Assembly (NCBI RefSeq): GCF_000313135.1
Contig: NW_004457346.1
Location: 102,137-166,136, forward strand
Direction of reading: 5' to 3'
Source of the DNA: Acanthamoeba castellanii str. Neff
Taxonomy: Eukaryota; Discosea; Longamoebia; Acanthamoebidae
Length of the DNA: 64,000 nt
The notes under the pieces were generated by a model that saw only the letters and a program-made list of their open reading frames with translations, had not been told where the DNA came from and did no database searches. Numbering within the stretch: position 1 is the stretch's first letter; every line of letters starts with the position of its first letter. Shown here in pieces: positions 2,824 to 57,292 of this stretch. A program made the translations under genes and the position numbers.

Positions 2824-4203
2824 TCACTTGTTGAAGGACTTGACGCCCTTCTCCAGAAGCAGCTTGATCCTGATTGATTGAGAAAGAACAGAAAATGATT
2901 GGTTCGTGCGCAGGTTAGAAGAACGCTCGAGCTAACACATAGAAGAACGTGGGCTGTAAGTACTTGGCAAGCACGAGTGGCTGATCGACGTCAAAATTGA
3001 CGGCCCACTTGGGCAGGTAGCCGCAGGGGTCGCATTCGCAGATGTAAGTTACCACGCAGGCGTCGGGGTTGCCAGCAACACTGCGATCGGAGAGGAAGAG
3101 AATGAACATTCACGTCGTGATGATGTGAGGGTGCGAGAGGTTGTGTTGCGAGCGTACGCCTTGATCTGATAGCCCGAGGCCCGCAGGTCGGCGCGCACGT
3201 ACTGCTCGGTGGTGGGCACATGGCCGGAATCGACCGAGCGGGCGATGGCGAGCCACGTCTCGTCGTCCACCTTCGTGTAGACCTCCAGGCACTGGAAGTC
3301 ACGCGGGTAGAGTGGGAAGGGGAACCTGCGATGATGTTTACAAAAACCCGTCAGCTTTCCATAATGCAAAGAATGCGCGCGTGTCGTGTCGTGTCGTGTG
3401 NNNNNNNNNNNNNNNNNNNNNNNNNNNNNNNNNNNNNNNNNNNNNNNNNNNNNNNNNNNNNNNNNNNNNNNNNNNNNNNNNNNNNNNNNNNNNNNNNNNN
3501 NNNNNNNNNNNNNNNNNNNNNNNNNNNNNNNNNNGAGAATGGCGTGCTCGGGGTCATACTGCTCGCAGACCTTGGAGCTTATGTACAGCTGGTCCACGTA
3601 CTTGAGGTGCGTAGAGTCCACCAGGGCCTCGAACACCTTCTCGGGCGCCACGTTGATCGTGGTTTGACCTGCGGTGTGCATAAGTGGTGGTGAGCGCTCG
3701 AAGGTTTGTGTGGCATGATCGTATGAAGTGGGAAAAAGAAGGTAAAAAAAAACCTCGAAGTCGGTTGATGTCGGACGAAGCGGTGGCCTTGCGGTGGATG
3801 GTGACACCGTCCTGCGTCTTGGCCAGCTGCGTGCGTGTGATCACACAATACCGCACAAAAAGAAAGTGGTGGTTGGCCAAAAAGCGTAAAAAATAAACTA
3901 CGGCGCGCACGGTACCTGCCAGCCATCTTCAGGCCGTCCCTGGACGGTCTCCACGAACTCGGCAACCATGGCACGGCCCACGTCCAGGTAGTTCTCCGCG
4001 CTCACCTGGTCCAACGCCCTCATCGGTCCCGCCTTGCGCTTCTCACCCTCTGATGTGCAGAGATTTCGGAATGCCATCAAATGAGATGAATTGTGTGCAT
4101 TTAAATTAAATCCAAATGACAAAAGACAAAGACGCGTACCGGGGGTGCCCGCCGGGCTCTTGGCAGTCGCATCAGCCTTGGATCCAAAGAGGGAGTTCCA
4201 CAT
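2824..4203 (-). CDS. START (StAR-related lipid-transfer) domain protein, interrupted by an assembly gap
   Basis: Predicted soluble lipid-binding protein. The ATG at 4203 opens a short N-terminal exon (MWNSLFGSKADATAK). Exons joined by GTACG-type introns then give a START-like order: a helical segment (about 4055-3925), the DGVTIHRK strand, the INVAPEKVFEALVD helix, YVDQLY, then after the gap CLEVYTKVD, a W-I-ARSVDSGHVP strand, VRADLRASGYQIK, a GYLPKWAVNFDVDQP segment, and a C-terminal helix ending KSFNK with the stop at 2824. These match the hallmark strands and final helix of the family. The 134-N gap lies inside an intron flanked by GTGTC repeats, so little coding sequence is probably lost. 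The gene is head-to-head with another START-encoding gene, which suggests an inverted duplication. The ligand cannot be read from sequence. Confidence 0.8.
3401..3534. other. Assembly gap (134 N)
   Basis: A run of N follows GTGTCGTGTCGTGTCGTGTG directly, so a (GTGTC)n intronic microsatellite probably caused the gap. It falls in an intron of the START-domain gene. Confidence 0.98.
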
Positions 4204-4662: not shown

Positions 4663-5691
4663 ATGGAGCGATTCTTCAACGGATTCGGCTCCTCCTCTCA
4701 GAAGCAGGCCACCATCAAGGAGGCCACAACACCAAGGAAGGAGGATGTGGCCAAAATCAACGTCGAAGACGATGAGGATTTTACACGCAAGGGGAAGGAC
4801 GTACTGCAGGCCTTCATCGATGTGGCCACGGAGGAGACCACCACGCGCCGCGGGTGGAAGCGAACCAAGGAGCACAAGGGCATCGTCGTCTTCGAGAAGA
4901 GGCGGCCCGATTCGGCCATCAATCTCTTGCGGTTCGAGACGCGGGTCCAGATTGATGCTGAAACGCTTGTCTCCTTCCTCAACGACGCCGAATTCCTGCA
5001 GCGCGTCGCGCCAGCCGTCTTCACCGCCAAGACCATCTTGCGCCAATTCGACGACAACCACTCGATCCTGCACTTCACCTTCCCAACTGTCGGACCCATC
5101 GCCAACCGCGACCTGACCACCTTCGAAACGTCCGCACGCAACGTTGCAGGTAAAAACTCCTCCTCTGCAAATATATATTATTAAACCACCATTATTTTTG
5201 TTTTAAATCAATAATTACGTCAATAAATAACTCTAATCTTTATTGTGTCACGCACAGCCGCATAAACGTCAATAAATAAAGCAAAAAAAATTAAAAAATT
5301 AAAATTTAAAAAAATGCGCTGCTACCAAGTTCTCAGAGTAGCGACTACGTGGTGTGCACAGGGTTCGACTTCGTGACGGCGGCCCGCAGCATTGAGGTGC
5401 CATCCAGCCCGCCGGCTCCTGGCGTCGTGCGCGCCTACGTGTCGGTAGACTCCTCTCTCCCTTTGTGTGTGTGTGTGCTTGCCCTTCATGTCTCACAGGA
5501 ACATGATGTGCTGATGCATCTGGCGGGCCACTTCTATTCACAGGTGACGGGCTATGGTGTCGTTCGCGATGCAGAGACCAGTTGCAAGCTCGTGCACATC
5601 GTGCACGTAAACCCCAAGGGTCAGTCGCCTCTTGCCTCTTGATCTTCGTGTCAGAGAGAGATTGTGCTCACCGCCATCTTCATCTTTCGCT

Positions 5692-5757
<66 letters not shown>

Positions 5758-8700
5758 ACCAGGTGCGCTCATCCCGATGCTGGTCAACATGTTCCAGGTG
5801 AAGCCTCCGCTGGAGGCCGTGGTGGCCATCTGCGCCTACTGCGCCGACTTTGCGCGCAAACGCACCGCCGCCGCCGCCCGACTGACCCAGCCCGACAAGG
5901 CCAAGGAAGCCGACTCAGACGCCGAGTCGGCTCTCAGCTTCGAAGACCCTGCACAACCCGCCAACAACGACGAAGGTACCCTAAGCTGGGCTGGCGGCTT
6001 CGCCACGTTTGGTAGTGCATGCTGCTGACGCGTCACGTCATGTCGGCTGTTCGGTGGATGTGCGCGCAGGCGATTCGTATAGCCATCTGCTCGAGCGACT
6101 CATGGACAACCCGAGCGTACTCGACCAGCTCATGAACCTCACACCCATCAAGCGCCTCATCAAGGACAGCGCGCTACTCAAATCACTCATGAACGGCGAC
6201 AAAGGTACCTTTTACTTTTGTTGACGACGCTACAGCACAGGCTTTCTGACCTGACTCACGCCGGCGCACTTCACAGGCGGCAAGTTGACGGAAATGTTCG
6301 AAGACAAGGCGCAGCTCGAGGACCTGTGCGACATGATCATCTCGGGCGAGATATCGATGCAGGAGCTGACGGGCCTGCTCAACGAGATGTTCGGCTACGA
6401 GAGCACCGACAAGACCGACCGGGCGAGCGAGGAGAAGGACCGCCTGAAGGTGATCGAGGCCTCACTCCTGGGTGCAGGCCAGGACACCCTGCAGTTCCAG
6501 GTGCTGGACGAGCACGAGCTGATCACACCGCTCGGCGCCGAGGGCCAAGGCGCCGACGCCGACGAGGTGTCGCTTCACGGCCGCTGGACCGCCTGCCCGC
6601 TCACCATTCAGCAGCACAACGTCTTCCAGCGCATCGCCGACACGGCCACGGCTAACAACTCGCAGCACGTACAGCAGTGGTGCTGCGACATCAGGTGCGA
6701 CGCGCACCAACAACAGCTGTCGGCCGCCGATGTGCGCAGAATGTGGCAGACGCTGCTCAAGTGCCACCCGGCCCTGCGCACGCTCCTGCTGCGAGTCAAG
6801 CCCGGCATGCGCCGACGAGGTGGCAGCGGCTCCAACTCGTCGCCTTCTCTTTCATCGCGCTCGCCATCGTCGTCTTCGCTCGCAACGTCATCTTCGATCT
6901 TTCAAGTGCTGCCGGGCAGCAGTCTGCCCTTCGTCTTCCGCGAGGTCGACTGGTCGGCCAAGTCGCCCGAGGAGCAGGAGCGCGAGTGGGCCGACCTGGT
7001 CCGGGCCGACGCCCGGAGCGGCTTCGACCTGCGCAAGCTGGAGCACCTCGTGCGCGTGACGCTCGCTATGACCGCCGTCGGCGAGATGAAGCTGTTGTGG
7101 ACCTTCCACGCGGCCCTGCTCGACCACCGCTCGTCGGCCGTCGTGCTGGCCCACTTCATGCGGCTCGTCCGCACCACCCACTCCCAGGGCCAAGGCCAGG
7201 GCCACGTCGGCCTCGACTCACCGCTGGTGCTGGTCAACGCCGAGCCTGAGCCCGCCCAGCCGCCGGCCAAGGACCCGGCCAAGCGCGAGGAGGAGGAGAA
7301 GCGATTCTGGCGCGAGACGCTGCGAGAGATCCGGGCGCCGACGCCGCTCTTCAAGGCGAGCCCGACGACCGCAGGCGGGAGGGAAGCGCAGAGCGAACGC
7401 CACCAGGCGGTCCAGGTCCGTTTGGAGGCCGCCGCGGCGGCCGGCCTGCAGAAGCTGGCGCAGAGCCACCAGGTCTCGCTCGAGACCGTGCTGCTCGCTG
7501 CGTGGGCCTGTCTGCTGCAGCGATGCAGCGGCGGCGAGAAGCGGGTCCTGTTCGGCTCCCTGCTGGCCCAGCCCACACAACACACACCCCGCGCCGGCGC
7601 CGACGCGTCGAGCGGTGATGCGCCGCTGCTGGGGTGCGTCCACGCGGCTGTGCCGACGGTGGTGGACTTCAAAGAGGACAAGTACGCGGGCGACGACGGG
7701 GCGGGGCTCGGCGAAAACGGCGTGGGCGTGCGGCTTGACGCCTTTCTGCGACGACTGGACGCCACGGTGCGCGCGACCAGGGAGCGCGGACAGCAGGCTG
7801 GCGGCGCCGGCGCCACGCTGAGCATCAGCGCCATCCAGCAGCAGAGCGAGGTGGCCGCCGAGTACAGCCTCTTCGAGAGCCTCTTCGTGTGGGACGACTA
7901 CACCCGCGGCCTGCTCGACGCCGCCACCGACGGTGCGGTGGCCGTGGCCGTCAGCTGCGACCACACGACCAATTGGCAGTACCCGCTGGTCCTGGTGGTC
8001 AGACATGGTGCCACGTCATCATCGCCGGCGCCGTACGACCTGACGCTGAGCTACGACGCCGGCCTGTGGCAGCCCAAGGACGCGCAGCGGCTGAGCGTCT
8101 ATCTGTCGACACTGCTCGCCGGTCTGTCGACAGCTGCGCCGGCCCAGACCGTGCACTCGTTGCCGCTGTTGCCCGAGGACGAGGTGCGGCAGCTGGTAGT
8201 GGCGCACAACGACAACGCGCGGCCCTACCCCACCGACGTGCGCATCGAGCGGCTCTTTGAGGCGCAGGCCGCGCGCACGCCCGACCAGGTGGCCATCACC
8301 TTCGACGAGCTCGGCCAGGCGCTCACCTACCGCGAGCTCGACCGACGAGCCAATCAGGTCGCCCACCACCTGCTGTCACTGAACCTGGGCAAGGGCTCCC
8401 TGCTCGCCATCTACATGTACGCCTCTGCGTCGCGTCGCGTGTGTGTGTGTGTGTGTCGTATGTGTGTCATGTGTGTGTGTGTGTGTGTGTGTCATGAGTG
8501 TGTGTCGTGAGTGCCGTATGCGTCATGTTGTGCCATGTCGGCCGTGCGCAAGCTAACGTGGTGTGTGCGGTGTTATCGCAGGACTCGATGCGTGGATGTG
8601 GTGGTCGCCATATTCGGTGTCATCAAAGCCGGTGCGGCCTACCTGCCGCTCGACCCCGAGTACGTCATGCGCATTATTATTATTATTATTTAACTCTGAT

Positions 8701-11700
8701 ATGCTGCGGCGCTATTCACTGGTTCTCAACCACCTTGCCCTCGCCGCCGCCGCCGCTCTCTGCGCGAACAGAACGCCGAAGGAGCGCGTGTGGCAAATCG
8801 CCAAGGATGCCAACGTGGCCAGCATTGTCACGCAGCGAGCCAAGGCCGATGTCCTCTTTGCCGGCCACGACGGGGAGTGTGCTGCGTTGTGCTTGGACGA
8901 CCCCTCCGTGGTGAGCGCCATCCAAAGCTCGCCGGACTCTGCGATGCCGGCTGACGTCACCGCCGCGCTGGACGCCAACCAGCTCATCTACGTCATCTAC
9001 ACAAGCGGTACGCGTGCCCTCGTCTGCTTTTCTTTTCTTTTCTTTTCTTTTTTACACATTCCTCACATGCTCTCGTTGGCCGGCTGGTCGCGTGTGTAGG
9101 CTCGACCGGCAAGCCCAAGGGCGTGCGTATCTGCCACAGGGGGCTGGTCAACCAGTTCCAGTACATCCGATCCCAGCCGGGCATGCGCGAAGGCGACGTC
9201 ATCCTGGGCGTGAGGTAAGTAACCCCATTTTTTAAATATAATAATAATAATAATAATATATTAAAAAGGACGTAGTATTATTTGTAGTTTAATGGTTCGA
9301 CTCATGGGCCGTTGCCTGTGCTGCGCAGTACGCTGTCGTTCGATATTGCGCAGTTGGAGCTCGTGCTGCCTCTCACCTGCGGCGCCAAGATCGTGATGGT
9401 GTCCTCGGCCATCCAGCGGTACACCGACCTTCTCTCCCCTTGGCCACCGCATCATCGCGCCTGACCGTCTGGTCACTGCAACATGACAATTCACCCACGC
9501 ACTCGCGGCCCACGACACACACACACACAGGGACGGCTTCCGCCTGAAGACGCTGCTCGAAGAGAGGCTGGCTGCGCGCGATCCCATCACCATCATGCAG
9601 GCCACCCCGGCTTCGTGGCGCATGCTGTGGTACGTGGCCACCCGCCCGCCCGCCTCGCGGTGTTCGTTGATCGTCGACTACTGGCCGACTCACTTGACGG
9701 CCCATAGTGCGGCGGGCTGGCAGGGCGATGCGGAGCACCTGCGGATCTGGTGCGGCGGCGAGGCCATGACGTGCGACCTCGCGCGGCAGCTCCTGCCGCG
9801 TTGCTCCGCCCTGTGGAACATGTACGGCCCCACGGAGACCACCGTGTGGGCCTCCGCCCTCCGCGTCACTCTCGAACACACCCAGGGCTCCTCCATCCCC
9901 GTAGGTAAGTCTTCATCCACTGCGTGTGCGGTGCGTGCGGCACAAGACAGGACTGATGTGGGTGTTGACAATGTGTTGTTAGGCGGTAAGGAGCACAACA
10001 GCCAGTTCTTCCTCTTGGACGCCTACCGACAACTGGTGCCTGCGGGTGTGCTGGGCGAATTGTACATAGCCGGCGATGGTACGCAGCGCACCCTACCACC
10101 GATCGTCGTCGTCGTCTTCTTCTTCTGCCGCTGATTGATCGTCCTATGTCTGATGTGCGCCAGGGGTGGGTTCGTACGTCGACCCCGAGATGACGGAACG
10201 GTCATTTGTAGATAATCCATTCAAGCTCAAATATTTGCCGCACTCGAGCGACAAGATGTTCCGAGTCGGCGACGTGCTGCGCTACAAGGACGGCGACGAC
10301 AACACGCTCGGTACACCACTCGCTCCTCAAGAATGTACGCCGCGATTGTGTGTGGAATGCTGACGCGTGGTCATTGGCATGCGAAGAATTTTTGGGGCGG
10401 GTCGACCACCAGGTCAAGATCCGGGGCTATAGGATCGAGCTCGAGGAGATCATGAACTGCGTCTACCAGCACCGCAGCGTCAAGGAGTGCCTCGTGGTGG
10501 CCAGGGAGCCGGACTACGCCGGCGGCGAGAAGTACCTGGTGGCCTACATCATCATGGAGAGCAGCGTCATCGGCGATGACGTCAGCAGCGCCGGTGGTGG
10601 TGACGTCAGCAGCAACCACCACGAGGCCAAGGCGCGGATGGTGCAGGAGCTGCGGCTGCTGCTCGAGGAGCGCCTGCCGGCCTACATGGTGCCCTCGCAC
10701 TTCATGGTCCTCGACAAGTGGCCCCTCTCGCCCAACGGCAAGGTCGACCGCACCGCCCTCCCCTCCCCCACGCGCGGCGGGTACGTCTCCCACCCGCGCG
10801 TGTGTCGTCGTGTGCGGCGTGTGCGGTGAGCGCTCACACGTGTAGTGGTGCCTGCAGGCAACACGAGGTGGGGTTCAACTATGCGGCGCCCAACACGGCG
10901 GCCGAGCGCACGCTGGTGGAGGTGTTCGAGTCGATTCTCCACGTGTCGCCGGTCGGGGTGGACGACGACTTCTTCGCCCTGGGCGGCAACTCGCTCCTGG
11001 GCGTGTCCCTCATCGGCGCGCTCGAGGGCAAGTTCGGCGTACGGTTCCCGTTCTCGGTCATCTTCTCGGCCTCGACGGTGCGCCACCTCGCCGTGTGCAT
11101 CGGCGAGGCCCACGCCACGTCAGCAGCCACCTTACTCTCGTGCGGCGGCGGCCGATCGGCCAAGACCACCGAGGAGGATGAGCGCCGCGGCCGCGACAGC
11201 TACGACGACCTCAGCGTCATCGTCAAGGGGTCCAACGCCGGTGTCGGTACCCAGCAGGACCAGCAGCCCGGGCTCGCGCCACCGGCGGCGGCGGTGAGCA
11301 GCGCGGCGCCGACGGCGGTGCTGGCGGAGAAGATGAGCGCGGCCAAGCGGCTGATCTCGTCGTTCGCGTCGCCGCTGGTGCCCCTCCAGACCCGCGGCCC
11401 CGGCCTGCCCCTGTTCGTCATCCACCCGGCCTTCAAGTCATCCGTCTGCTACGGCGCCCTGGCCTACCACCTCGGTACGAGACACGACACGACACGCAAC
11501 ACGACACGGCACGGCACACGACATTGACGCGTGTTGCGCGTACACAGGCGCGGACCAACCGGTGTACGGACTGGAGCCGAGGATCGAGTACCGGTCGATC
11601 GAGGCCATGGCCGCCGACTACGTGGCCGCCATCCGCCCGGTCCAGAAGAGCGGACTCTACAACGTACGCCGTCGCCCCCGCAACTGTCGCGCGTGTCGTG

Positions 11701-12462
11701 CGTGTCGTGTATTGACGCGTGTGTCGTGCGAAACACACACACACACACACGCATGACAGATCGCCGGTTGGTCGTTCGGGTGCACGGTGGCGTACGAAGT
11801 GGCGCGACAGCTGCAGGCGTCGGGCGACGAGGTCAACCTGCTGCTGCTCGACGGCCGCGCGCCGGTCTACGACCCGACCTACCTGCGCTACGACGCCGAC
11901 GCCCTCGCGTTCTGCGTGCTGTGCCGCGGGGCCAAGCAGTACCTCGGCTTCGGCGTCGACGTGTCCTACACCGAGACCGCGCCGCTCTCGCCCGACGAGC
12001 GGCTGCTCAACGTCATGGGCAAGGTCATCGACAAGAACGGGCTCGACCTCGTCCCGCCCTCCGTCGCCATCAACTTCTTCTTCCGCTTCCAGCGCGACAT
12101 CCGCGACAGCGAGGTCCTGTCGCGCAACTACGGCCGGCCGGCCGCGCCCCTGCGCGGGCGCGTCACCCTCTTCCGCACCACCGGCGACAACGACATCCAG
12201 GGCGTCGACGACCCGCTCCTCCACTCTCGGTACCTTTCTCTCTTTTTCTTTCTTTCTCTTTCTTTTTCGAATTTACCAACAACACGCGCTGACCGCACGA
12301 CACACGCGACACGACACGCGCAGGACGCTGGGGTGGGACCAATTTTGTGAGGAGGTGGCGGTGGTGGACGTGGGCGGCGACCACGAGTCGATGGTGTTCC
12401 AGCCGACGGTACTCGAGGTGGCCCGCAAGCTGCGCCCGTGCCTGGCCGGCAAGAGCCCGTGA
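4663..12462 (+). CDS. START-domain / non-ribosomal peptide synthetase fusion (START-C-A-PCP-TE)
   Basis: A roughly 2,000-residue protein from about 19 exons. Order: START domain (4663-5974); helical linker (6070-6450); condensation-like domain (about 6580-8200) with a Ser-rich insert; adenylation domain (8220-10780) with LTYRELDRRANQ, AGAAYLPLDP, TSGSTGKPKG, MYGPTETT, GRVDHQVKIRGYRIE and NGKVDR (Lys at 10740); carrier domain with GGNS (Ser at 10991); thioesterase with GWSFG (Ser at 11772) and GDHES (His at 12382). It should activate one amino acid, load it on phosphopantetheine and release it by hydrolysis, cyclisation or transfer. The condensation motif HHxxxDG reads HAALLDH (7107-7127), so catalysis there is doubtful. 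Splices from START into the NRPS keep one frame (G|GC joins near 5975/6070 and 6206/6277). The first donor, near 5150, is the least certain. Confidence 0.88.
5697..5756 (+). repeat. (GT)n microsatellite in an NRPS intron
   Basis: An uninterrupted GT run lies in the intron between the exon ending ...VNPKG and the exon starting with ALIPML of the START domain. It ends a few bases before the CACCAG acceptor. Confidence 0.95.
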
Positions 12463-13908: not shown

Positions 13909-15615
13909 TTATTTTATTTTATTTTTTATTTGGTCGAGGTACTCTTGCACCGTTCGTACGGGCTGGCCGCCGTAGGGGTTGTCCTTGCGGACGTGGAGCA
14001 TGTGGGCCTGGCGGGCGTCGAACCAGTCCGGCAGCGAGTCGGGGTTGAAGTGGAGGAAGGAGTGGATGGCGCGCGGGGGCCAGAAGAGGGACTTGCCGAA
14101 CTCGCGGGCGTAGGAGGCGTCGGGGCCGAGGAGGTGGTGCATGGCGGCGCCGTCGAGCGGGGCCAGGGCGCGGAGGAGGGCGGGGAGGAGGGGCTCAGCG
14201 GCGCGGTGGTCGCTTTCGAGGCGGCGCACGCGCGGGCGGCGGAGGTAGGCGACGCCCTCGCGCTCGATGCGCTCGCGGTGGCGCGCGACAAAGGTCTTGA
14301 CGTCGATGCGCGCGTGCGGCGGCTCGGCGGCGAAGAGCTGGACGAACTCGTCGGGGTCGATGAGGAAGAGGAAGTCAAAGTCGGCCTGCCAGCGCAGGAA
14401 GGCCTCGCGGCCCATGCACTCGAGCAGGTACGAGTAGGTGACCTTGGGCCGCCCGGTGGGCACGTCGAGGTCGACCAGGGTCACGCGCGCGGTGAGGCGC
14501 GGGTCGTCGTAGCGCGCGATGGCGTCGACGACGGTGGACATGTTGAGGTCGCGCGTCGACACGGCGATGACGATGTGGTCCACGCCCACGATGTCGAGCA
14601 TCCACATGAGCCACAGCTCGTCGTCCGCATTCCACGAATACTTCTTGGTGCACACCGCGCCCACGCGGATCGCCGCCGCGGCCGACCCGGCCGGCGCGCG
14701 CACCACGCTCACCGGCTCCCACGGCGCCGCGGCAAAGGCGGCCGGCCGCTCGTCGTACTCGTCGTAGGTGAGGAAGGTGGTCGGGTCCGGGAAGTGGAGC
14801 ACCTCGGCGAGCGGGAAGAGCGCGGCGTCGCCCGCGGCGTGAACCTTGAGCGCGCCACGGGCGCGCGCGTGGTCGCGCAGCCGCGCAACGACGACGTCGT
14901 CGACCAGGAACGCGCAGCGCACCACGAGCTCGAGGTAGGCCGGCTGGCCGTTGGCCATGCGGTAGTCGGTGCCCTTGGGCAGGTCGTGCAGGCACTGCTG
15001 GGCCGGGAGGCGCTTGACCACCATCCGCCCGACGCCCTCGATCAGCACCACCTGCTCGGCGGTGGAGCCGATGTCGGCGGCGCCGTCGACGTCGTCGTCG
15101 GGCTGGTCGTGCCACCAGAGCTCGACGGTGCCGAAGGCGCTGGTCCAGCTGTTGTCCTTGAGTACCGTGACGAAGCGGTTGGCGAGGCCCAGGTGGAGCT
15201 GGAAGATGCGGAGGCGCGGGTCGCCGGCCAGTTCGGGAAAGGTGGCGGCGCGCACGGCGGGGTCGGCGGGCAGGCGCGCGGGCGGGGGGAAGGCGCGGTG
15301 GTCCTGGCTCGCGCTGACGATGTGGAAGTTGCGGTCGGGCAGGGAGCTGTGCAGGTCCCAGCGAATGCTGAGCGGGTCGGGCCGATGTGAAAAAAAAGAT
15401 GATGATGATTGATCGTCGGGAGACGATGAGACATCTGTGTAGAGGGTGCGATCATAATAGGAGGAGGGATTGGCGGGGAGGAGGGAGGAGAGGAAGTAGA
15501 ATGCGGCGCAGAGCAGAGCCGCGATGATGAGAAGCCGCCGAGTATCCAACCTGCGGCCCAGATTGGACTCTGGTGGTCGATTATCGTCCACCGTGCTGCC
15601 GCTGATTGATCGCAT
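13909..15615 (-). CDS. Glycosyltransferase family 92 (DUF23)-like type II membrane protein
   Basis: Intronless, about 568 residues from the ATG at 15615. That start is preferred over an in-frame one at 15777 because it places one hydrophobic segment at residues 28-46 (LLIIAALLCAAFYFLSSLL) after a short basic tail, the usual Golgi type II anchor. The lumenal part shows the GT92 pattern: AVCTKKYSWNADDELWLMW, then GVDHIVIAVS, then a metal-binding DxD-like FLIDPDEF, and near the end HFNPDSLPDWFDARQ and HMLHVRK. It probably transfers a sugar, perhaps galactose as in animal GT92 enzymes, to secretory glycans. The acceptor is unknown. The GC-rich third codon positions give a long antisense open frame that should be ignored. 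Confidence 0.75.
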   Translation of the reverse strand: MRSISGSTVDDNRPPESNLGRRLDTRRLLIIAALLCAAFYFLSSLLPANPSSYYDRTLYTDVSSSPDDQSSSSFFSHRPDPLSIRWDLHSSLPDRNFHIVSASQDHRAFPPPARLPADPAVRAATFPELAGDPRLRIFQLHLGLANRFVTVLKDNSWTSAFGTVELWWHDQPDDDVDGAADIGSTAEQVVLIEGVGRMVVKRLPAQQCLHDLPKGTDYRMANGQPAYLELVVRCAFLVDDVVVARLRDHARARGALKVHAAGDAALFPLAEVLHFPDPTTFLTYDEYDERPAAFAAAPWEPVSVVRAPAGSAAAAIRVGAVCTKKYSWNADDELWLMWMLDIVGVDHIVIAVSTRDLNMSTVVDAIARYDDPRLTARVTLVDLDVPTGRPKVTYSYLLECMGREAFLRWQADFDFLFLIDPDEFVQLFAAEPPHARIDVKTFVARHRERIEREGVAYLRRPRVRRLESDHRAAEPLLPALLRALAPLDGAAMHHLLGPDASYAREFGKSLFWPPRAIHSFLHFNPDSLPDWFDARQAHMLHVRKDNPYGGQPVRTVQEYLDQIKNKIK

Positions 15616-16173
15616 TATCTGTGCACACACGGTCGTTTGTGGTCCGAGAGCAGATGTGGCATTCAAGCGAGTGGAATCGCTGGTGCTTGTGTGGCACGTC
15701 GTGTTGTGCCAGGCCGGCACAGCAAGCTCACGCGGTGCACGTTTCTTGCCCGGAAATGCTAAGACATCGCATTGCACGCCAAGGTTTTTTGCATTGTGCC
15801 CCGTTTTATTCGGGTTTTATCCGACAAAAATCCCACTTTTACAGTAATCTACAATATTTACAATATTTTAATATAATCTTTAGAAGGGCGCGTGCATTTA
15901 TCTGGTCGGCTAAATCCGCCATAGGAGTTACGCCAGCAAACACTGCCGCACAAGACATTTCTGTGCATGATTGCAAAAACATCGTCACCAGAACTCTCCT
16001 TCATCTCTCGTACGGCAGGTGGGTACAGTACACGGTAGGGTCACCCAAAAATAAAAACGAAAGCTTCTCCTTCCTTCTTCTATCTTCTCTCTTCATTCTT
16101 CTTCATTCTTCTTCGTTCTTCTCGGCCCACCCTCTTTCTCTCTCGCTCGCTCCACCACAAGGCGCCAGGCCCC
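15616..16173. other. Intergenic region between two minus-strand genes
   Basis: This holds the 5' flank of the glycosyltransferase gene and the 3' flank of LIS1. There is an AT-rich patch near 15840-15885 and a CT-rich run (tcttc/ttctt) near 16065-16125. I see no gene here. Confidence 0.5.
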
Positions 16174-55201: not shown

Positions 55202-57292
55202 ATGGGTAAGCGCTGGCTCACTCTCGTAATCTGTTGTTGCCTGTGGGCGCTCTCTGCCACCAACGGGCAACGAACGGTCAAACCTGCCAAAACCTGTCCA
55301 CTGGAACTATCCGATGGCTCACCAACCGTCTTTGATGGTCCACTCGATGGCTACAGGTACCCTCGTGAATCCATGCACACGTTGCTACTAAGTCTCGATA
55401 TAAAACTCAATGTAAACCATAAAATCTAATACCCTCTCATTTCTTCTAGATTTTCAGACTTCAACCTGATCTCGTTCGGCAACTTCAAAGCGACAGGTGG
55501 TGGCTCCAGCATCAGAGGCCGTCTGGCAGTCCAACACAATGTGTCGATCTCCGGGACCTTCAGCATCGGCGGTGCGCGCAACGTGCGCCAGCAGCGCTAC
55601 TCGGTGGTGATAGGCGGAGAGTCGGTGACGTGGCGCTCGGGCAGCGTGAGCGGCGGCGGCTTGCTGGTAACCTCTACCAACGAGGGAGCCATGCAGCTGG
55701 ACTTGGGCAAGTCCCTCCAACGACAGACCGTGGGCGGCTGCGACGTTGCCTCCAACTGCTTGATTTCGTTCTTCGACGATGCCTTCTCCTACTTTGACGG
55801 CTTCACCAGCGACATGGCCAGCGACGCCCAGGCCACCGGCGCCGGCTCAGTGACCCTGCTGCACGGCGGGCTCCACTTCACCGGTCCTCGCTGGGCGCAA
55901 GGCACCAGACGTCTGGTGTTCAGCGTGCCCTTGGAGCAGTGGAACTCGGCGCACTACTTCACCAAGGCCTACGTCGCGGAAGACCAGGAGTTGGTGGTGG
56001 TGATCGACCAGGACGGTAGCGCCCAGTCCCTCAGGACCAAGATGCCCGCCGACGGATTCCCTCATCTTAGCAACAAGCTAGTGGTCGCGTTGGCCGGCCA
56101 AGGGCCGAAGGTGGAGGTCGAAGGTCCCGTCCCGTTCGGCGGTTCGCTGCTGGCCCCCCAGCGTGACGTCCACCTACTCCAGGGCAGCTCAGTCAGAGGA
56201 GTACTCGTGGCGGCCGACCTCCACCAGTACAAATCAAGCCGGGTCCTCCACCAGGAGTGCTCACCGGGCTGCATCGCCACGCCCTGGCGCGTCCCAAACA
56301 ATGCCACCGAGACTACGCTCTACGTGTTCGCCGGCGACGACGCGCGGCTACGCCCCGACTTCCTGGCCGTCATCGAGTTCGATGAGCTCTCCCGTGACTA
56401 CGGCAAGGTAGTGCTCACGGTCCCTCTGCCACCGCCCGGGAACATCGGAAACGAGCCGCACCACTGCGGCCTGGTCACGGAGAACCGCAACATCCTGGCG
56501 TGTGGCGGTCTGCTGAGCCTGCTGAGCGACCAGGACGGCATCTTCTTCTTCGATGTTTCCGAGCCGCGTCGCCCTCGATTCCTATCCTCAACCCGCGCCA
56601 GACATTCAAGCATAACTGACGACTTCCTGCCGCTGCCCAGCGGTGGATTTCTGGTCACCCAGATGGGCTCGGCCACCGGCGGAGCACCGGGCCGCCTTGC
56701 CGAGTTCGACCGTTGCCTTCGATTGGTCGCTGAGCACCCTCGCAAGCCGTTGCCTGCGGATGACCCCGGCTTCAACCCTCACGGCGTCTCGGCCCACTTC
56801 GACCTCAACATGCTGGTCACCTCCGACTACGTCAACCCTGTGAGTACTCTCAATGCCTACGCGGGCGGCGTCGAGCTGCGCGGGACCATCAGGTTTTGGG
56901 ACCTCGAGCGGCGGGAGATCAGCAGCACGGTCGTCATGCCTGGCCCGCCCATGGGCATCATGGACATCAAGTTCATTCCACACGACCCGCATGGCATCGC
57001 CGTCGCGGGCGCCATGTTCTCCGGAGTCTACTACACGGTCGACCCCACCACCGGCAGCGTGACCGAGGCGTACAACTGTCGACAGATCGTGCCCCAGTTG
57101 GGCGAGCCCAGCCAGTGCATGGTCCACCTCCTGACCCCGATGAACAGCGGTGACAGACTCCTGGCGTCGTCGTCCTACGGTCAAGTGCTGCTGCTGGACA
57201 TCTCCAACCGCGCTAGGTTCCACCAGTTGTCCGTGGTCAACCTCGGTGTCACTGCTGGGCCACACGTGCTGGCGCTCACCCAGAGGCATTGA
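55202..57292 (+). CDS. Secreted choice-of-anchor A / SBP56 (selenium-binding protein) fusion
   Basis: Two exons (55202-55356, 55450-57292), 665 residues. The start gives a signal peptide (MGKRWLTLVICCCLWALSATNG). Residues about 55-250 read FSDFNLISFGNFKATGGGSSIRG... LLAPQRDVHLLQGSSVRGVLVA, the bacterial choice-of-anchor A pattern. The second half resembles SBP56/methanethiol oxidase: ECSPGCIATPW (56257, where the family has CGPGYA), VPLPPPGNIGNEPHHCG with the paired His at 56459, a blade FFFDVSEPRRP, NPHGVSAHFDLNMLVTSDYV, GTIRFWDLERREI and the late AGPHVLALTQRH. It then stops, shorter than full-length SBP56 proteins, exactly where CpG-free block C begins. Probably a secreted or surface beta-propeller; the substituted Cys/Gly loop makes oxidase activity uncertain. 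Few introns suggest recent bacterial origin. Confidence 0.78.

Follow-up and report, generated by a model that had tools for sequence, protein, structure and literature searches.

Synthetases of the EntF type (enterobactin synthase component F) carry condensation (C), adenylation (A), carrier (T) and thioesterase (TE) domains in this order, and EntF itself uses serine, relies on a partner carrier and has a C domain that works. A START domain and thioester cleavage are combined in one chain in ACOT11 (Them1) and ACOT12, where a hot-dog thioesterase acting on CoA is joined to a C-terminal START domain, and adenylation and carrier domains are absent. For Pseudomonas syringae, a report on the mgo operon (PMC3298696) describes the non-ribosomal peptide synthetase (NRPS) MgoA and the START-superfamily protein MgoD as encoded together, and insertion mutants in the gene of either one as producing no mangotoxin, with polar effects left possible by the authors. 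Analysis of a window of 64,000 nucleotides from Acanthamoeba castellanii str. Neff yielded a gene in which a START domain and an NRPS module are fused in a single protein of an amoeba.

The fusion gene is located at 4663-12462 on the forward strand (all positions are those of the window). Splice sites were picked by hand, with the preservation of an open reading frame as the criterion, resulting in 19 exons (4663-5149, 5362-5444, 5544-5619, 5763-5975, 6070-6204, 6277-8416, 8582-8659, 8772-9007, 9100-9214, 9329-9418, 9531-9629, 9708-9904, 9983-10078, 10164-10310, 10387-10780, 10858-11474, 11548-11663, 11760-12229 and 12324-12462) and 18 introns, every one GT-AG, and in a protein of 1975 aa without internal stops. 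Long TG repeats are present at 5690-5757 in intron 3 and at 8440-8490 in intron 6. Bacterial-type promoters or terminators were not detected in 5950-6320, which says little for a eukaryotic gene. Six of six Pfam families exceeded their curated cut-offs in the protein, the domain order being START, linker, Condensation, AMP-binding, AMP-binding_C, PP-binding and Thioesterase.

Relatives were collected with a protein search that scored 8,000 candidates having short exact words in common with the query, a procedure from which distant or intron-split relatives can escape. The protein corresponding to the fusion gene, P0001, stems from the source 'lgn', presumably the Logan assemblies built from public reads, and comprises 1974 aa, with 9 member sequences and a longest contig of 6,099 bases. 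It matches the gene model end to end, from the first to the last residue, with two differences (L878F and a missing Ala at 1672), and contains the junction peptides of exons 4/5 and 5/6, tying START to the NRPS part. Its coding sequence of 5,925 nt is uninterrupted; as the contig is shorter than the genomic gene span of 7,800 bp, it does not represent the genomic gene of the window, and it is almost certainly a spliced transcript, an intronless copy elsewhere being a far less likely source. The doubt that the fusion might be false is largely removed by P0001. The spliced frame proposed in the preliminary description, leading from START through a linker into condensation-like, adenylation, carrier and thioesterase domains, is thus borne out by both Pfam and P0001.

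Among the best 120 of 248 proteins matched at E <= 0.001, P0001 alone carries the START family (PF01852). When residues 1-640 were used as the scored region in the same exact-word search, P0001 was the sole match, and a query consisting of START and linker gave 0 matches at E <= 0.01, START proteins of any kind included, which makes this a weak negative; intron-split eukaryotic genes are probably under-represented in the protein set searched. An ortholog of the fusion from another species was not found in these limited searches. The genome (38.4 Mb, 250 contigs) contains an actophorin exon identical at 76 of 76 aligned residues to PDB entry 1ahq, the actophorin of Acanthamoeba castellanii, in agreement with an Acanthamoeba origin. 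In this genome, no second copy was present among 22 matches, counts for large families being lower bounds; outside the fusion gene, matches were obtained on contigs C124 (37% over aa 1314-1611), C94 (31% over aa 1139-1523) and, for START, C44 (24% over aa 43-230). The earlier statement that no START-NRPS fusion had been described agrees with the best 120 of 248 matches and with the open-licence PMC papers listed, among which none was recognised as judged by titles and abstract openings.

The adenylation domain and its C-terminal subdomain (8256-10742, +) were assigned with Pfam to aa 992-1350 (AMP-binding, PF00501, 255 bits, E 1.1e-75) and aa 1421-1516 (AMP-binding_C, E 1.8e-5). All core motifs searched for were found (YTSGSTGKPKG, YGPTE, GRVDHQVKIRGYR and NGKVDR), as the preliminary description had claimed. 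The pocket positions, for which we assumed GrsA numbering, were located by motif and mapped on the relatives, yielding the code DILQWGMVWK. DILQ occupies the first four positions in 14 of the 15 best-scoring A-domain alignments, the exception being DMLQMGLVYK. According to a published study (PMC12283262), the code DILQLGMIWK is common to four glycine-activating domains, and the fusion shares 8 of its 10 residues; Leu or Met at position 299 is traced to glycine domains, and a code with Trp-299, DLYNWSLIWK, occurs in a cysteine context. The Trp at position 299 of the fusion A domain is unusual and deviates from the Leu or Met of glycine domains. From its pocket, the domain is predicted to adenylate glycine and to load it onto the carrier.

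A phylogeny of the A domain was computed with FastTree from 64 sequences, comprising the fusion, its 60 best A-domain matches and three fungal sequences, many of them without organism name. The fusion was placed in a 23-member clade (support 0.999) containing 0 of the three fungal sequences, with P0111, P0024, P0096 and P0098 as nearest neighbours (support 0.946) and a support of 0.149 for the exact sister. Among the 119 other listed proteins (best 120 of 248), those known to be fungal occupy ranks 115, 117 and 118. From this tree of best-scoring matches we read the A domain as being of bacterial origin, and the NRPS module was probably acquired by lateral transfer.

The Condensation-family domain (6900-8198, +; aa 540-972, profile positions 71-456) was recognized by Pfam PF00668 with 67.9 bits and an E-value of 8.9e-19, compared to 188-362 bits in six relatives; the 255 bits of the AMP-binding domain compare to 244-305 bits in the five relatives in which it forms one stretch, and to 478 bits in the sixth, with two stretches. 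Although the profile matches, the second His of the HHxxxDG motif is absent. The motif is replaced by HAALLDH at aa 609-615 (His609, codon 7107-7109; Ala610, codon 7110-7112), with the first His and the Asp retained and the Gly of DG exchanged for His. In a PDB alignment, 'llwtfhaalldhrs' of the fusion is placed opposite 'llaihhlvvdgvs' of PvdL, the motif being free of gaps. P0001 carries the same HAALLDH letters, which speaks against an assembly error. For comparison, 63 alignment pieces were obtained from the 119 other listed proteins (best 120 of 248), and 24 pieces not spanning the motif were dropped; counted as alignment pieces and not as proteins, the second His, Ala in the fusion, is kept in 39 of 39, with the variants HHxxxDG (26), HHxxxDA (10), HHxxxDE (1), HHxxxDH (1) and SHxxxDG (1). 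The ratios of C to A identity for the fusion protein (0.52-0.82, six pairs) overlap with those of P0098 versus other relatives (0.58-0.74, five pairs); as P0098 keeps HH yet shows similar ratios, divergence alone is no proof of C-domain decay.

Judged by its motif, the C domain would no longer form peptide bonds in the usual way. Since it lacks a residue kept in 39 of 39 pieces, it is less likely to be the domain that makes a lipo-amino-acid product; if such a product forms, the thioesterase would be the likelier catalyst. Of the complete one-module NRPS that had been proposed, the adenylation, carrier and thioesterase motifs are intact, while the C motif, with its second His missing, does not conform.

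The carrier domain (10910-11092, +; PP-binding, PF00550, aa 1547-1607, 51.5 bits, E 1.2e-13) contains the phosphopantetheine-accepting Ser1574 in GGNSL (codon 10991-10993), and two ACPS-family matches in the Acanthamoeba genome are candidates for its activation. The alpha/beta-hydrolase thioesterase extends over 11408-12462 (+), with Pfam PF00975 covering aa 1713-1808 (71.9 bits, E 1.2e-19) and the remainder assigned by position. Its Ser1778 is found in GWSFG (codon 11772-11774) and His1950 in GDH (codon 12382-12384), such that the carrier Ser and the thioesterase Ser and His are all in place, as reported earlier; the Asp was assigned by eye only. Relatives of this domain in the PDB are thioesterases of NRPS, of PKS13 and of fatty acid synthase.

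The START domain (4837-5791, +; aa 59-225) was identified by Pfam PF01852 with 44.8 bits against a cut-off of 22 (E 1.2e-11). Its best sequence match among solved structures is STARD10 (6ser, E 1.7e-11), and the START domain of ACOT11 is a weak, non-significant match (E 0.063). The fused START is predicted to bind a lipid. The linker to the C-like domain (5792-6570, + strand, limits approximate) is encoded by exons 4, 5 and 6; it appears helical by eye only, and no Pfam family exceeded its cut-off in the piece searched. A START-only gene, with exons read by hand, is located at 2824-4203 on the reverse strand, head to head with the fusion gene and with the start codons 460 bp apart; its START domain and the fused one are paralogues. 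An N run of 134 bases (3401-3534) falls within this neighbouring gene.

The surroundings were searched for a biosynthetic gene cluster, covering 10 of the 18 single frames of >=300 aa, with N-containing frames left out. Pfam matches were obtained in 2 of these 10 frames, one encoding an NmrA-type reductase and the other an adhesive/SBP56 protein, and a cluster was not adopted, in a test that is weakened by introns. The latter frame (55430-57289, +) combines an ice-binding-like adhesive domain with selenium-binding protein (SBP56), both above cut-off. The frame just downstream of the fusion gene (13912-15816, -; 635 aa) has no Pfam match at E 1e-5.

In the remaining genome, a single other Condensation-family locus was found (L014; G000:C124:1479200-1489100, -), with Condensation, adenylation-like and carrier matches. 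In tblastn, its match to the fusion is confined to the A and T parts. Inspected by eye, its frames end in a thioester-reductase-like stretch, with a possible saccharopine-dehydrogenase-like part upstream, and no START was noticed. At L015-L016 (G000:C9:985000-1002000), ~10 kb of one strand contain an AMP-binding match, two carrier matches and a thioesterase match, probably another large synthase gene, and two carrier matches and one thioesterase match over ~7 kb at L017 (G000:C154:92500-102400, -) represent another probable megasynthase.

For the fusion protein we propose the following mechanism, the core of which (glycine loading, a non-canonical C domain and release by the thioesterase) we consider to have an even chance of being correct. 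A START gene of the host would have been duplicated, and one of the copies fused to a bacterial-type glycine NRPS module, which now has introns. The A domain would adenylate glycine and load it onto the carrier, and the C domain would no longer make ordinary peptide bonds; the thioesterase would take over the glycyl group and, most likely, pass it to an acceptor on release. A lipid would be bound by START, either as this acceptor, giving a glycyl-lipid, or as an anchor that sets the site of the reaction.

The best-surviving alternative, which we regard as possible but clearly less probable than an even chance, is that START serves solely for regulation or targeting, in that it senses a lipid or tethers the protein to it and so controls the enzyme, and that the NRPS makes a small product from glycine that has no relation to lipids. 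It shares the core with the mechanism above and differs only in the role of START, so that the two overlap. A regulatory START has been proposed for START-containing thioesterases (Them1/ACOT11), the START of which is the weak, non-significant match mentioned above; the ACOT thioesterases have a hot-dog fold, however, which limits the parallel to the architecture. A tethered regulator would fit with the long linker, in which no known family was recognised, and START domains have been postulated to modulate the remaining domains of their own protein (PMC3127847).

A particular form of the proposed mechanism, to which we assign a smaller and rather doubtful probability, is that of a eukaryotic lipid-modifying enzyme that employs NRPS chemistry but forms no peptide bonds, in which the thioesterase would transfer the carrier-loaded glycine to a hydroxyl group of a START-presented sterol or phospholipid.

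The lipo-amino-acid product suggested in the preliminary description would follow if the C-like domain were still active and coupled a lipid-derived acyl group, delivered by START, to the nitrogen of the loaded glycine, resulting in an N-acyl-glycine lipid; we consider this unlikely. START domains carry whole lipids and not activated acyl groups, which counts against acyl delivery; further, there is no upstream carrier fused, and the motif has Ala for the second His (kept in 39/39 alignment pieces) and His for the Gly of DG, a position at which DH occurs in one relative's piece and DA or DE in 11. In favour of activity, the first His and the Asp are retained. Altered-motif C domains can also work: according to a review (PMC11546977), activity is not lost in every case when the second His is mutated, and ORF18 with HQxxxDM functions.

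Decay of the gene, with the NRPS part losing function and the condensation domain affected first, would be in line with the degenerate C motif and the low Condensation score; we consider it improbable, as no motif of A, T or TE is damaged, the 19 exons form a frame free of stops, and the sequence is present in a contig of spliced type. The least credible reading splits the locus into two genes, one for START, which would end at 6028 via read-through of intron 4, where the unspliced frame reaches a stop (6026-6028), and one for the NRPS, from the ATG at 6102; this model, and with it the separate START and NRPS mRNAs considered in the preliminary description, is contradicted and largely refuted by full-length P0001, in which a single frame covers both parts and includes the two junction peptides, and whose contig, at 6,099 bases, does not reach the length of the gene.

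A peptide synthetase fused to START was seen in none of the other listed matches. If START hands its lipid to the synthetase, the fusion would constitute a single-protein route to glycyl-lipids, and if glycine goes onto the START-presented lipid, this route to aminoacylated lipids would be independent of tRNA. If START only senses lipid, the activity of a peptide synthetase would be controlled directly by lipid. The gene is testable in a laboratory amoeba, with glycine as the predicted amino acid and ordinary condensation predicted to be absent.

Compared with known systems, the single-module C-A-T-TE proteins P0098 and P0111 are like the fusion in domain order, DILQ-type pocket and A-domain clade, and unlike it in having no START match and in a C motif in which HH is kept, followed by D. 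The EntF-type synthetases have A and TE domains related to those of the fusion and the same C-A-T-TE order; EntF differs in the absence of START, in addition to its serine substrate, its partner carrier and its working C domain. ACOT11 and ACOT12 likewise unite START and thioester cleavage in one chain, unlike the fusion in their hot-dog thioesterase, the C-terminal position of START and the lack of adenylation and carrier domains. In the mgo operon, MgoA and MgoD are separate proteins, and MgoD matches Polyketide_cyc2 and not the START family proper; this pairing of an NRPS with a START-superfamily protein is the nearest functional parallel to the fusion among the literature compared.
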